Assembly: GCA_021650895.1 (NCBI GenBank)
Contig: CP091278.1
Coordinates: 525,659-589,658, forward strand
Length of the DNA stretch: 64,000 nucleotides
Source: Candidatus Jettenia sp.
GTDB taxonomy: Bacteria; Planctomycetota; Brocadiia; Brocadiales; Brocadiaceae
Reading direction: 5' to 3'
Numbering within the stretch: position 1 is the stretch's first letter; the number at the start of each line of letters is the position of its first letter. Below are positions 55,819 through 64,000 of the stretch, piece after piece. The notes beneath the pieces are model-generated. The model was given only the letters and a program-made list of their open reading frames with translations, ran no database searches and had not been told where the DNA came from. A program made the translations under genes and the position numbers.

Positions 55819-58251
55819 TTATCTGCCATTATAGCCTGGGTAGAAATCTGGTCCCTGGATATTGTCCCATTGTGCTCCAATATCTATCCACTCGACAAAC
55901 AGGTATCTCTCATCCTGGGTCAGGAATTTGTCATGCATTACTCGTCCTTCCACTGGGAATACCTTCTCCTTCGGCTCAAACTGGCTTAACTTCTCTTCAT
56001 ACAACCTCCATATCAACAAGCTGTTAATCGCTGCTGACGGATTGACATACTTACCACCAAGATTCACATCCTTACCCCTCTGTGGCTCTAACAAACTATT
56101 GTATGCACGGCTAAAGGCCGCTACCCCATCAACACTCGCTAACTCTGCCCCTCCACTTAAATCCGGAGGATTGCTTGCATTGTGACAGTTTGCACACTTT
56201 GCATCAAGTATCGGCTGTATATCCCTTCGGAAATCCACAGTCCTTCTCTTCTCATCCGTTAACCCTTCTACCGGCTGAGATGTTGTTCCTGATGGGCCTC
56301 CATAGTATACATCCGATGGTACCACAACGTCCTCACCATGCTTTACACCCTGATAAATCCCCTGCTTATCAAACCTTAAATGCCCAAAGGCAAACGGTGA
56401 ATCATAATGGCTTCTGTCATCATACCACCAATTGTATAATGCCTTCGTATGCTGATTCTGGAATGCCCTTCCCCGATATGATCCATCATGGCATCCACTG
56501 CAAATCCTACCATGATATGGCCTCAAATATGCCCACATCAGTGCTGTCTGCACTGCCATACCCCTCTCATCCAAATTCTGAATGTAGTACGGAGTATCTG
56601 CCGTCTGAGAAGTTACCACTGAACCATCATCCTCTACATACTGATACCCAATGATCCGCCTCTGCTGGAATGCGGTTCCTGAGTTGCTGCTTGACCTGTC
56701 TCCACCCAACAGATGCTTTCCGGCTCCTACCTTGAACCTCCCTGCCTCCGGCTCAACGCATGGTACACCTTCTACGATTCTCACTGCCTTTACATCACCC
56801 GGCTTCGTTGCCTTTGCCCTCTGACTTGGATACGGACCTACTGGCACATCGGTCAGGGTTGTATCAAAACAAATCCATGTACCCCATGAGTGGGGATAAC
56901 CTTCTACCTTCACCTGGTCAAATGGCTGATAGGTAACGGTTGTTACACCAAAGTCCTTACCTGCCGTAAAGGTGTTGATCCACCTCGGCTTGTACTTTAT
57001 ATACACAGGCGCTGGCTGATGATCGTTCCACTCAGGATCATTGTGGACTACCTCGCCGGCTCTCCCGTTCTTACAATCAAACCAGTAGATGCCAAAGTCA
57101 CCTCTCTGGGCATAGGATACTAACATCCTATCATCAGGAAGTGGATACGGACTCCGGTACAATCCACCTTCATCCTTGCTCAACCTCTCATAGGTCTTGT
57201 TGAATGGAGCATCCCAGCTTACCGCTGCCAACTGACCTACACCCCAATTCATATAAGGCGACTCTACAAACACCAGCTTCCTGTCTCCGAACGTTACCTT
57301 CGACTGTGACCTGCCGCTTGATCCACCAATCTCCCCATCACAGTTCCCGTAAATCGGCCTCGGATATGCACCATCCCAGTTATCCACGCAGAGCATTACC
57401 CTACCTTTTCCCTCTGCCCTTGTACCATTCGCCTGCACGCTTGAGAAAAGGATGTTTCCATCCGGCGTTAACCATGGATCAAAGTTCGAACTCAGGTTGT
57501 AGGTTATCTGATCTATCGTTGTGTTTAAACTCGGAAACTCTATACCGGAAAGAACGTGTCCCGTAATTCTTTCGGTTACATGACCGCCCTGCGTATCCAA
57601 CCTGAACAGGTTGTATACATAGGGATTATGAAGCTCATCCCTTACACCATCCGGAGAACCTGCAAATATAATAAACCCGGTCTTCTCTACCGTACCCCTT
57701 TCTTTCCAGTCTCCTTCAAAATACCTGTCACGCCATATAACACGACCCTTTCCTTCCTCTATACTGCCAGCAGCATAGTAGATAGGAGCACGGCAGGTAC
57801 CTTTATAATCCGTCATCTGCCTGAGACCGCTTCCATCAATGTTCATCTCCCATATCTGACATCCACCACCCTTCTTGTGGATACCAGCAAAGGTAAATTT
57901 CTTCCCATCCCAATAGGTGCAGGGATCAAAGGCTGTCGCAAAATCATTCGTCAGCACCTTTAATTCCTTCGAATTTAAATCAAATAGTACGATCCGGCTT
58001 CCCTCGGGAACATAATGAGGATAGTTCTGATACGGGTCGCCCTTCTCCGTCCTCGGTGACTGGGTAAATAATATCGTATTCACCGGACCTTGTACTTCCT
58101 TTGACATACCACTGTAATCTGTCCATAAGGCCTTTCCTTGCTTCGAACCGCCAACCATTACCTGGTTGCCCGTCGCAAAGATGTCCCCACAGACCAACGC
58201 ACCAGCCACCATTGCCGATGCCATCGCTATTCCTATTCTCTTCTTACTCAT
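55819..58251 (-). CDS. hzsA: Hydrazine synthase large (alpha) subunit
   Basis: 810 residues from the ATG at 58251, chosen because AAAGGAGAAGG precedes it; a GTG at 58272 would read through that site. Signal peptide MSKKRIGIAMASAMVAGALV, cleaved near IFA-TG. The N-terminal half is a propeller-like region with ordered WTDYSG, RIVLFDLNSKELKV and YFEGDWK segments. Two heme sites are CSGCH (C584-H588) and CANCH (C686-H690). Length, heme placement and gene order match the alpha subunit of anammox hydrazine synthase (kuste2861 type). It carries the active-site hemes that condense NO-derived hydroxylamine and ammonia. Symbol naming follows hzsCBA; authors differ. Confidence 0.93.
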   Translation of the reverse strand: MSKKRIGIAMASAMVAGALVCGDIFATGNQVMVGGSKQGKALWTDYSGMSKEVQGPVNTILFTQSPRTEKGDPYQNYPHYVPEGSRIVLFDLNSKELKVLTNDFATAFDPCTYWDGKKFTFAGIHKKGGGCQIWEMNIDGSGLRQMTDYKGTCRAPIYYAAGSIEEGKGRVIWRDRYFEGDWKERGTVEKTGFIIFAGSPDGVRDELHNPYVYNLFRLDTQGGHVTERITGHVLSGIEFPSLNTTIDQITYNLSSNFDPWLTPDGNILFSSVQANGTRAEGKGRVMLCVDNWDGAYPRPIYGNCDGEIGGSSGRSQSKVTFGDRKLVFVESPYMNWGVGQLAAVSWDAPFNKTYERLSKDEGGLYRSPYPLPDDRMLVSYAQRGDFGIYWFDCKNGRAGEVVHNDPEWNDHQPAPVYIKYKPRWINTFTAGKDFGVTTVTYQPFDQVKVEGYPHSWGTWICFDTTLTDVPVGPYPSQRAKATKPGDVKAVRIVEGVPCVEPEAGRFKVGAGKHLLGGDRSSSNSGTAFQQRRIIGYQYVEDDGSVVTSQTADTPYYIQNLDERGMAVQTALMWAYLRPYHGRICSGCHDGSYRGRAFQNQHTKALYNWWYDDRSHYDSPFAFGHLRFDKQGIYQGVKHGEDVVVPSDVYYGGPSGTTSQPVEGLTDEKRRTVDFRRDIQPILDAKCANCHNASNPPDLSGGAELASVDGVAAFSRAYNSLLEPQRGKDVNLGGKYVNPSAAINSLLIWRLYEEKLSQFEPKEKVFPVEGRVMHDKFLTQDERYLFVEWIDIGAQWDNIQGPDFYPGYNGR

Positions 58252-58327
58252 CTGTTGGCCTTCTCCTTTCACTCTTTTTGAAATTATTTCCCTGTAAATC
58301 TATTCGCATCCCTTTCACTTCAGGTCC

Positions 58328-60600: not shown

Positions 60601-61146
60601 CTACTTACTAACATGTGGACAAGTACCAGATTTAGTACAAACTATTTCAAGAGGTACACCACAAGTTTCACAATCGCCAGATTTCTCAATTTGAGGTGCA
60701 TATCTTCCTTTAATAGTCGTGAAACCTTTACCTGGCTCTGGGTTTTCTTTACCACATTTAGAACATTTAAATAAAGTCCTTGACCAAACCTTTTTACTGG
60801 TAATATCATCACCACATTCATCGCAAGCACCAGGAGCAGGTAAACACACACCATATTTCTTACAATTGGTATTAACGCAACTGTATGCAATTTTTTGGCA
60901 TGCCCAACATGTTGGTAGATCAGTATGCGTCTTATCTCCTTCAGCACGGTGCTTTGCAAAATCCCAAATATACCCTATTTCGGAACACTCATTAAACTCC
61001 CGAACATCTTTGCACGCATCACACCAGTATGCTTCTAAGATCTGTCTTTTATCACAAGGTTTATCCCATGCGGCAAAAACAGATTGAGTTATAGAAACAA
61101 ATATACATAACATACCAGTTGCAAAATAAAGGCCCTTCTTAACCAT
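60601..61146 (-). CDS. Secreted cysteine-rich protein directly upstream of hydrazine synthase
   Basis: 181 residues with a signal peptide (YFATGMLCIFVSITQSVFA, cleaved before AWDKP). The mature chain has about 22 Cys, many as CxxC or CxxxC pairs: CDACKD, CWACQK, CVNTNCKKYGVC, CDECGDD, CSKCGK, CETCGVP and CTKSGTC. They look like stacked zinc-ribbon/rubredoxin knuckles rather than hemes, since no CxxCH exists. GAAAGGGGAT precedes the ATG. The gene is 50 nt upstream of hzsC and co-directional, so it may help assemble or protect the synthase (for example metal or disulfide handling). I recognise no family. Confidence 0.85.
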   Translation of the reverse strand: MVKKGLYFATGMLCIFVSITQSVFAAWDKPCDKRQILEAYWCDACKDVREFNECSEIGYIWDFAKHRAEGDKTHTDLPTCWACQKIAYSCVNTNCKKYGVCLPAPGACDECGDDITSKKVWSRTLFKCSKCGKENPEPGKGFTTIKGRYAPQIEKSGDCETCGVPLEIVCTKSGTCPHVSK

Positions 61147-61205: not shown

Positions 61206-61223
61206 TAGCATAATCTATACCAA
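61206..61223 (-). promoter_or_regulatory. Candidate sigma54 promoter (GG-N10-GC) upstream of the Cys-rich gene
   Basis: On the minus strand TTGGTATAGATTATGCTA has GG and GC separated by ten bases, the hallmark -24/-12 spacing, but only partial match elsewhere to TGGCAC-N5-TTGC. Its predicted start would be ~50 nt before the Cys-rich ORF. Its neighbour upstream encodes a sigma54 activator, which supports but does not prove it. Confidence 0.35.
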
Positions 61224-61439: not shown

Positions 61440-62834
61440 CTAATTTGACAAACCGTACTTTTGTAATCTATACCGGAATGTTCCTCTTGTTAACCCTAAT
61501 AGTTTAGCAGCTTTTGTCTTATTATTTTTACTCTTTTCAAGTGCCTGCGTTACTAATTGTTTTTCTAAAGCATCCAGAGATAAACCATGAGGAGGAATAT
61601 CAAATTGAACAGTGGTATTATCTGATGTTTGGAACTTATCTTTTGCAGGGAAATATGACCCTCTAATAAGAGATGTTGGTAGATGTTCAGGCATGATTAC
61701 ATTACTTTTACAGAGAATCACCGCTCTTTCAATAGCATTTTGCAATTCTCTAATATTACCTTCCCATTTATGCTGGATAAGGAGTTTTTCTACTTCTTTA
61801 CTTAGAGAAATCGGCGCTTTCCCCATTTTTATTGAAAAACGTCTCAAAAAGTGTTTGCTTAATGGAATAATATCTTCGGTTCTTTCTCTTAATGGTAATA
61901 AGGTAATTGGAAAGACGCTTATTCGATAATATAAATCCTCTCGAAATTTACCGAGCCGCACCAAATCCTCCAGGTTTTTATTGGTAGCACAAATAATCCG
62001 AATATCAACTTTAATTGTCTCGGTACCGCCAAGGCGTTCTAATTCTTTAGACTCAATAATACGCAATACTTTCGCCTGGATGGCTGCACTCATTTCCGAT
62101 ATTTCATCCAAAAAGAAAGTGCCGCCGGCAGCTAGCTCAAAACGCCCCTTTTTAGTCTTTTCAGCACTGGTGAATGCACCCTTCTCATATCCGAATAATT
62201 CACTCTCAAGTAAATTTTCAGGTATCGCAGCGCAATTCAACGTAATGAGAGGTCCTCCGGCTCTGTTACTATTGTAGTGAATTGCACGTGCAATTAACTC
62301 TTTTCCCGTGCCACTTTCTCCGGTAATTAATACTGTTGAATCAGTCTTGGATACTTCTCCAACCAGCCTCAAAGCATCAGTAACTGCTGGAGAATTACCA
62401 ATGATATTTGAGAAATTATATTGAGACTCGAGTGCCTGACGTAAGTTTTTATTCTCAATAGCTAAACTACTCATACGCAAGGCCCTCTTTACCGCGAGCT
62501 TAAGTATCTCATTCTCAAAAGGAGTTGTAAGATAATCAAACACTCCTTCTTTCATTACATCAATTACTGATTCTACGGAACCGTATGCGGATAAAACGAT
62601 GATAGGAAGGTCAGGTGTTTTGCTTTTAATTGCTCTTAAAAACTCAAGCCTTCCCACTTCTTGTACTTTCAGATCTGTAATTAATAGATGAAAACGCTCT
62701 TTGTCTAAATAATCCATAGTTGTTACATAATCACTTGAAGTAACAACTTTTACATCTCTCATTTCATCAAAGACCATGGCAAGCACTCTTCTCATACGCT
62801 CTTCGTCATCTGCAATTAAAATTCTGTAAGTCAT
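61440..62834 (-). CDS. Sigma54-dependent response regulator (NtrC family)
   Basis: 464 residues. Receiver domain ~1-118 (ILIADDEERMRRVLAMVFDE, phosphoacceptor Asp in LLITDLKV, Ser/Lys switch IIVLSAYGS and FDYLTTPF, where the usual Lys is Thr). AAA+ domain ~140-370 with Walker A GESGTGKE, GAFTSAEK (sigma54 contact), Walker B FFLDEISEM and RIICATNK. A Fis-type helix-turn-helix closes the chain (AKLLGLTRGTFRYRLQKYGL). The conserved receiver Lys being replaced by Thr in PF context is unusual. It lies 290 bp upstream of the Cys-rich gene, in the same direction as hzs. Confidence 0.93.
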   Translation of the reverse strand: MTYRILIADDEERMRRVLAMVFDEMRDVKVVTSSDYVTTMDYLDKERFHLLITDLKVQEVGRLEFLRAIKSKTPDLPIIVLSAYGSVESVIDVMKEGVFDYLTTPFENEILKLAVKRALRMSSLAIENKNLRQALESQYNFSNIIGNSPAVTDALRLVGEVSKTDSTVLITGESGTGKELIARAIHYNSNRAGGPLITLNCAAIPENLLESELFGYEKGAFTSAEKTKKGRFELAAGGTFFLDEISEMSAAIQAKVLRIIESKELERLGGTETIKVDIRIICATNKNLEDLVRLGKFREDLYYRISVFPITLLPLRERTEDIIPLSKHFLRRFSIKMGKAPISLSKEVEKLLIQHKWEGNIRELQNAIERAVILCKSNVIMPEHLPTSLIRGSYFPAKDKFQTSDNTTVQFDIPPHGLSLDALEKQLVTQALEKSKNNKTKAAKLLGLTRGTFRYRLQKYGLSN

Positions 62835-62942: not shown

Positions 62943-63791
62943 TCATAAAGCCCAAACAAGAAGTGCTGAGAACATAAGGCCTGTCACTATAAGTCCGGTA
63001 ATCAAAATGGGAACCGCAAAAAGCCTGGTTAGAAAACTTACAAAAAGGGATGACGGGGCCACCTTTAAATTCTCTAATTGCTGCTGTTTTTCAAGTCTGT
63101 TAAACTGGTTTAAGCGTTCATGTTTAAATTCTTCTTCAGTTATTTTCCCGGTAAAAATAGATTCATCAACTGGCATTTTTTCAGGAAGCAAGTGAGTATG
63201 GAAAAAGTGAATAGTGAAAATAAATCCAGCAGCGAGGATAGCTTCGTATCGATGAATAATCAGCGCTATACTGGGAAGGTCTATAATACTTGCAACAGAA
63301 ACAGGGATAATTTTGGTGAATTGCACTGGGAACCAAAGAATTAACCCAGTAACAGCCATCACAAGCGTACCCCACATAAGCGACAGATATTCAAACTTCT
63401 CCCAGTATATCCATCTATCAAAATTCGGGCGCTTGCCAAGACCGAGAAACCACTTTACATCTCCAATGATATCAAAGATATCTCTTGGCTGTATAAGCAA
63501 GGAGTTTGGCCCCCAAAAGAAACCTTTTTTCTTTTGGACAGAAACGTTATAAAAAAGATAGATAAAATGGATAAATGCTGCAAAAAATGTAACCAAAGCA
63601 CAAATCCTATGGATGAATCCCGCTGTTGGATATCCTCCTAATAGCTCATATAGCCATCTTGCCCAATCATAGCCTCTAAATGCCAGAGGCATTCCTGTCA
63701 AAACAAGGCCAAAGAAACTAATAATAATTAAAAAATGGCAAAATCTATGTAAAAGACCAAATCGTAAATAATTAATGTTGCTCTTCATCAT
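62943..63791 (-). CDS. Membrane cytochrome b (thiosulfate reductase/formate dehydrogenase gamma-like)
   Basis: 282 residues from the ATG at 63791 (AAAGGGG site; a TTG at 63827 lies inside the previous gene). Four to five membrane helices carry paired His ligands: LLHRFCHFLIIISFFGLVL, FIHRICALVTFFAAFIHFIY, and LIIHRYEAILAAGFIFTIHF. This is a diheme cytochrome b fold that shuttles quinol electrons to a periplasmic or anammoxosomal partner. The upstream partial gene overlaps its start. In anammox models membrane cytochromes feed electrons to hydrazine synthesis, and the gene order fits that, as inference. Confidence 0.87.
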   Translation of the reverse strand: MMKSNINYLRFGLLHRFCHFLIIISFFGLVLTGMPLAFRGYDWARWLYELLGGYPTAGFIHRICALVTFFAAFIHFIYLFYNVSVQKKKGFFWGPNSLLIQPRDIFDIIGDVKWFLGLGKRPNFDRWIYWEKFEYLSLMWGTLVMAVTGLILWFPVQFTKIIPVSVASIIDLPSIALIIHRYEAILAAGFIFTIHFFHTHLLPEKMPVDESIFTGKITEEEFKHERLNQFNRLEKQQQLENLKVAPSSLFVSFLTRLFAVPILITGLIVTGLMFSALLVWAL

Positions 63792-64000
63792 GCCCCTTTC
63801 TCTTGCATTCGTCTCTAACAGTTGCAAACCAAGTCAGTAAGGAATGGAGTCCGAAAGAAGAAAATGTAAACGCCAATATCCCTACGTACATCACAAACAC
63901 TATACATAAAATTGTTTGTGGATTCATAAGAACTTTTTTAAAATTTTCCGGATCATTACGCGCGTTCTTTAATGCTACCATCAGTTTCGTATAATAATTT
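63772..64000 (-). CDS. C-terminal end of a membrane protein, partial (5' end outside window)
   Basis: The frame is open at the window edge (continuing upstream of the ATG at 63981). The visible ~75 residues have one membrane helix (TILCIVFVMYVGILAFTFSS) and end KGHDEEQH. It could be the anchor end of a multiheme cytochrome partner of the cytochrome b, with which it overlaps by ~20 nt, but no heme motif is in the visible part. Confidence 0.6.
   Translation of the reverse strand, partial: NYYTKLMVALKNARNDPENFKKVLMNPQTILCIVFVMYVGILAFTFSSFGLHSLLTWFATVRDECKRKGHDEEQH

Follow-up and report, generated by a model that had tools for sequence, protein, structure and literature searches.

An exported cysteine-rich protein encoded directly upstream of hzsC in anammox bacteria: a candidate factor for hydrazine synthase assembly

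Directly in front of the hydrazine synthase (HZS) genes of a Candidatus Jettenia genome we found a gene for a small exported protein whose cysteines are arranged as in zinc ribbons, and this position is kept at every resolved main hzs locus examined in the anammox order Brocadiales. Our preferred reading, held tentatively, is that the protein is a dedicated assembly or maturation factor of HZS. It would be exported to the anammoxosome, the compartment of HZS, would hold structural zinc in its knuckles, and would act in trans and in substoichiometric amounts. By binding newly exported HZS subunits it could help haem attachment or assembly, whichever of the hzs gene copies the subunits came from, and it may have been recruited from an older exported zinc-ribbon family of Planctomycetota. 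HZS is unique to anammox and slow in vitro (PMC7438415). The papers cited here do not explain how its unusual haems are assembled: in alpha-I the CxxCH histidine carries a zinc and a Tyr is a ligand, and gamma-I has a third covalent bond. An accessory gene with a single locus, held in place ahead of hzs in five families of anammox bacteria, offers a concrete candidate that can be tested. It is possible, if rather doubtful, that the factor is required for active HZS, is the first functional example of a new family of exported zinc-ribbon chaperones, and is the part that has been missing for reconstitution of HZS in foreign hosts.

The gene and its locus

The window analysed here is the whole stretch of DNA, 64,000 nucleotides in length. 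The features that concern us all lie on the minus strand:

55819..58272, minus strand: hzsA (HZS-alpha), by curated NCBIfam model NF052339
58328..59353, minus strand: hzsB (HZS-gamma), by curated NCBIfam model NF052341
59417..60550, minus strand: hzsC (HZS-beta), by curated NCBIfam model NF052340
60551..60600, minus strand: spacer of 50 nt from the Cys-rich gene to hzsC, inside which the sequence common to the second hzs copy begins
60601..61146, minus strand: exported multi-zinc-ribbon protein of 181 aa (orthologue of kuste2858 / KsCSTR_28180), from an ATG-started ORF and its orthologues
60613..60828, minus strand: C-terminal double zinc ribbon of the Cys-rich protein, from alignments, AlphaFold2 model and structural matches
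61075..61146, minus strand: signal peptide, residues 1-24, cleavage near VFA/A as read from the sequence, with a hydrophobic region variable in the alignment
61207..61223, minus strand: predicted sigma-54 (-24/-12) promoter TTGGTATAGATTATGCT, 61-77 nt before the start codon, from cross-genome conservation
61440..62834, minus strand: sigma-54 response regulator (kuste2857 type), from family searches and locus comparison
62943..63827, minus strand: membrane cytochrome b of an electron-transfer module (kuste2856 type), from family searches and locus comparison

The order is thus the Cys-rich gene (61146 to 60601, 181 codons), 50 nt, hzsC, hzsB and hzsA. The first-pass annotation had placed a protein of 181 residues 50 nt before hzsC in the same direction, which agrees with this minus-strand ORF; the plus-strand frame at 60601-61146 is full of stops. 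The signal peptide that it had claimed is visible in the protein sequence and is of Sec type (MVKKGLYFATGMLCIFVSITQSVFA, followed by AW), and its count of about 22 cysteines has to be lowered to 18, of which 17 are in the mature part. The haem-binding CxxCH of c-type cytochromes is absent, again as claimed, and so are the four CxxCxGxG repeats of the DnaJ zinc-centre chaperones.

The gene had also been called undescribed-looking, but as a locus it is described: kuste2858 / KsCSTR_28180 is listed as an "unknown protein" in the hzs cluster kuste2854-2861, published earlier (PMC6423088, PMC12053348). The Kuenenia gene is the same gene in the same place, and the window protein has 58-59% identity to Kuenenia-type orthologues. 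In the open literature it appears only as unknown, and we came across nothing there on its family, occurrence, cysteines, promoter or relatives; what is new here is the distribution, the single-copy linkage, the cysteine conservation, the sigma-54-type promoter and the wider Planctomycetota family. In Kuenenia proteomes kuste2858 has an intensity of 1.4e5 versus 1.8e7 for HzsC, about 1/100 (PMC6423088), and because of this ratio we describe the protein as substoichiometric, although poor detection of a small Cys-rich protein could be part of the reason for the low value. We found no report in the open literature of its co-purification with HZS.

Distribution and linkage to hzs

One copy of the Cys-rich gene is present in the window genome. 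Orthologues with 58-98% identity occur in 25 of 33 genomes of the family, and a profile search extended this to 49 of 62 Brocadiales genomes from all five families. Linkage was scored genome by genome by comparing the coordinates of the gene with those of hzsC. In the 32 genomes having both on one contig, the Cys-rich gene was directly upstream in 32/32, and in the other 17/17 the contig stops 39-240 nt downstream of it. The question of whether homologues always precede hzsC can therefore be answered with yes for all resolved main loci, the rest ending at a contig edge, and no orthologue away from hzs was found among the 49 genomes. This linkage is one of our reasons for favouring an assembly factor. 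Of the 13 Brocadiales genomes without the gene, some have no hzsC, and the others contain hzs solely as unresolved repeats or as second copies, which accounts for these apparent absences. In 13 other genomes of the same class the gene was found in 0/13, and a plasmid collection gave no match to the protein.

The tree places an old duplication of the gene in family f4. Four f4 genomes (L079, L081, L080, L078) still carry a tandem pair from it, and other f4 genomes retain one of the two types. The apparent second, truncated copy in G016 breaks off exactly where its contig does and probably arose in assembly.

Conserved cysteines and predicted fold

Among 25 Brocadiaceae sequences, 16 of the 17 mature cysteines are invariant, compared with 73 of the 157 mature columns overall (hypergeometric p = 2e-5). 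The cysteines are the most conserved residues of the protein, 11 of them being invariant across the order, and dN/dS values of 0.007-0.07 in eight pairs indicate strong purifying selection. With orthologues in 49/62 genomes of the order, such dN/dS values and cysteines over-represented among invariant columns, this is a real gene and not a chance ORF.

CxxC motifs are found at 42-45, 108-111, 128-131 and 159-162, and pairs at the spacing of the zinc ribbon superfamily are kept across 38 sequences with few Asp/His/Gly swaps. At position 162, f2, f5 and one f4 sequence have Asp in place of Cys, and in f3 Cys131 gives way to a C-x2-GH arrangement. Because single Cys-to-Asp or Cys-to-His swaps would orphan a disulfide partner, the cysteines are more probably metal ligands, and the sequences point to stacked metal knuckles and not to disulfides; the first-pass annotation had proposed such knuckles, and the ribbon-spaced pairs and the swaps speak for it. 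The C-terminal double ribbon would consist of CDECG (108-111), CSKCG (128-131), CETCG (159-162), C170 and the C176-P-H178 tail.

An AlphaFold2 model built on the order-wide alignment reached pLDDT 84 and pTM 0.74, an earlier run on a shallow alignment having been poor (pLDDT 55). The closest structural match of the C-terminal half was the zinc knuckle of methionyl-tRNA synthetase (MetRS), a weak one with Z 5.5 over 42 residues; other small zinc domains also align with this half, and these weak fold matches prove no function. The weakness of these matches and the many functions that zinc ribbons serve count against the preferred reading. Foldseek with the predicted structure gave no match at E 0.001, and PDB sequence searches gave nothing significant. 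In Pfam and NCBIfam no named family was reached at any curated cut-off, in agreement with the earlier annotation, which had recognised none; the best hints were zinc ribbons. LysW (PF21344), the double zinc ribbon PF07191 and the MetRS zinc knuckle have a CxxC...CxxC arrangement in common with the Cys-rich protein, but their matches are below curated cut-offs and those proteins are cytoplasmic, whereas the Cys-rich protein is exported. Membership of the LysW, Zn_ribbon_6 or IS1595 ribbons was rejected (17.0 bits versus a Pfam gathering cut-off of 27 for LysW, 15.7 versus 25.4 for IS1595). A GxCPxCGxxL-like turn is common to the protein and HMBD (PF19335; CopA), with Z 2.4 for the LpCopA HMBD and weak Pfam matches in two outgroup proteins; however, the Cys-rich protein is without YTCPMHP, is below the cut-off and has several more knuckles.

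Relatives in other Planctomycetota

Outside Brocadiales, distant exported homologues turned up when 392 Planctomycetota were searched with a profile. Once these had been added to the alignment (A4), matches at E 1e-6 or better came from about 12 of the roughly 355 genomes outside the order, several of which, e.g. G131, G093 and G257, had not been used for building the profile. These zinc-ribbon proteins (G118, G153, G228, G093, G257, G131 and others) likewise have a signal peptide, C-x2-C knuckles, C.K..Y.C, G.C..C and a terminal C-x2-SG-x2-PH, with minor variants. Thirteen invariant positions of A4 are common to them and Brocadiales, ten being Cys. We define the family by the signal peptide, the conserved Cys set and the terminal C-x2-SG-x2-PH, all of which the window protein has. 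The relatives differ from it in not being near hzs, in an identity of 22-30%, in often being present in several copies (1-4) per genome, and at Cys101 and Cys176, which are invariant in anammox and not in the relatives. In a quick tree with long outgroup branches, the Brocadiales proteins are separated from them as a single group (SH-aLRT 98). The Cys-rich protein is thus the branch found in anammox bacteria of an exported zinc-ribbon family that occurs here and there among other Planctomycetota.

Since the relatives outside anammox get by without HZS, the ancestral function is not HZS-specific, which counts against the preferred reading. Planctomycetota genomes with hzsA-like matches (G115, G213, G225, G234, G345, G366, G371) differ from those with strong zinc-ribbon matches, so that no ancestral pairing of the two was seen. 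The proposal of an HZS-related role is qualified in one respect, as distant homologues do exist in non-anammox Planctomycetota away from hzs; it stands in another, as they have no known function and fall outside the Brocadiales group. One non-anammox planctomycete (L124, G153:C177) has three successive exported zinc-ribbon genes, and at L133 (G228:C45) a larger protein carries the domain at its C-terminal end, a fusion that may point to a general function of the family.

The same relatives, in 1-4 copies and without hzs, would suit a general exported stress or scavenging protein, buffering metal, NO or hydrazine, that became linked to hzs without any contact with HZS. We consider this unlikely given the strict and ancient linkage in five families, the single Brocadiales group in the tree, the two extra invariant cysteines peculiar to anammox and the low abundance of kuste2858.

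Zinc and haem sites of HZS

The zinc at haem alpha-I of HZS is held by His587 and Cys303 (PMC12607021, PMC12758564). A multi-knuckle protein that adjoins a zinc-containing enzyme (PMC12607021, PMC12758564) could be a metallochaperone delivering zinc to this site, and metallation was among the roles suggested at first. The equivalent of alpha-Cys303, Cys311 in the window hzsA, is however replaced by Tyr in G022 (one Brocadiaceae) and both f2, and by Glu in all seven f4 examined; its loss in Scalinduaceae was already remarked (PMC12758564). Every lineage with the replacement retains the Cys-rich protein, and in some f4 it is duplicated. The zinc-donor role is weakened because the ligand varies while the protein persists, and zinc delivery as first stated is not supported, though this is not decisive, since a zinc site might still be possible with Glu or Tyr. 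In complete Cys4 ribbons the zinc is usually structural, which also counts against a donor, and we regard delivery as quite improbable.

Gamma-Cys165 (window Cys153), the third attachment of haem gamma-I, is invariant in every sequence examined. This is compatible with a role in haem maturation but is not evidence for one, because clade I homologues outside anammox also have the Cys (PMC12758564).

The CxxCG knuckles resemble rubredoxin loops and the neighbouring genes form an electron-transfer module, which would fit an iron protein of rubredoxin type that carries electrons to HZS or serves as its redox partner. With an abundance about 1/100 of HZS, Cys-to-Asp/His swaps, and searches of Pfam, NCBIfam and PDB sequences that gave no rubredoxin, such a carrier is very unlikely.

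Predicted promoter and possible sigma-54 regulation

Besides the ribosome-binding site, one conserved block was present in 23/23 Brocadiaceae upstream regions, TTGGTAY-N5-RTGCT with minor variants. It has the -24/-12 sigma-54 form and begins 76-103 nt before the start codon. Where the regulator is adjacent, the predicted site scores at least 6.2, a score reached in about 0.5% of shuffled regions, in 11/13 f4 loci and 1/1 f5 locus; nine f2 and f3 loci, without the regulator in the cluster, all score below 6.2. A predicted sigma-54-type promoter thus accompanies the adjacent sigma-54 regulator. It was revealed solely by comparison across genomes, a plain pattern search of the window having found 43 sites versus 56 expected by chance, with no excess. 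The promoter suggests that the neighbouring regulator controls hzs transcription, and the site together with the joint down-regulation of the kuste2858-type gene and hzs under hydrazine stress (PMC12053348) argues for co-regulation.

In f2 (L075, L076) and f3 loci (L084-L088, L090, L093) a cytochrome b gene precedes the Cys-rich gene, with no sigma-54 regulator between them and no conserved promoter.

Having locus and promoter in common with this regulator, and many thiols, the protein might instead be a sensor or regulator, informing the operon's sigma-54 system of the NO, hydrazine or metal state in the anammoxosome. It is exported, however, while the regulator is cytoplasmic, and f2 and f3 keep it without that regulator in the locus, so a sensor seems more improbable still than an electron carrier.

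Two hzs copies and proposed action in trans

In five complete or near-complete genomes compared, near-identical hzsCBA copies are 99.5-100% identical over about 4.8-4.9 kb; identical copies were published before (PMC12758564, PMC5854607). The identity starts in the spacer beside the Cys-rich gene, therefore only one copy has this gene at its head. In G045 (f4, Scalinduaceae-type) an intact Cys-rich gene adjoins an hzs copy broken by frameshifts and stops (L082, G045:C26), and the intact hzsC is at another site, downstream of the second regulator and without the gene (L152, G045:C22). The second copies without the gene and the intact gene of G045 beside a broken copy are our reasons for proposing action in trans, for which the G045 gene would have been kept unless assembly errors are involved.

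That the protein is a small structural subunit of HZS or of the electron-transfer complex, as the first gene of the operon might be, deserves hardly any credence because kuste2858 is at about 1/100 of HzsC by label-free proteomics (PMC6423088), second hzs copies are without the gene, and HZS as published is built from two copies each of three subunits (PMC7438415).

The second hzs copy has in most genomes its own sigma-54 regulator upstream, about 40% identical to the first; this different regulator precedes the second hzsC at L100, L102, L106, L108, L109, L110, L144, L147, L150, L152 and L153. In the Brocadiaceae genomes examined, sigma-54-like sites lie 180-320 nt upstream of the second hzsC; a GGAGGTG resembling a ribosome-binding site lies about 130 nt upstream of this gene, and there is no Cys-rich ORF. 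In the window's own genome (C1, L100) the second copy, near 1876468-1881197, has hzsA split by one inserted base, a surplus T near 1878052. The repeat is near-identical apart from this insertion, which is either a real frameshift or an assembly error.
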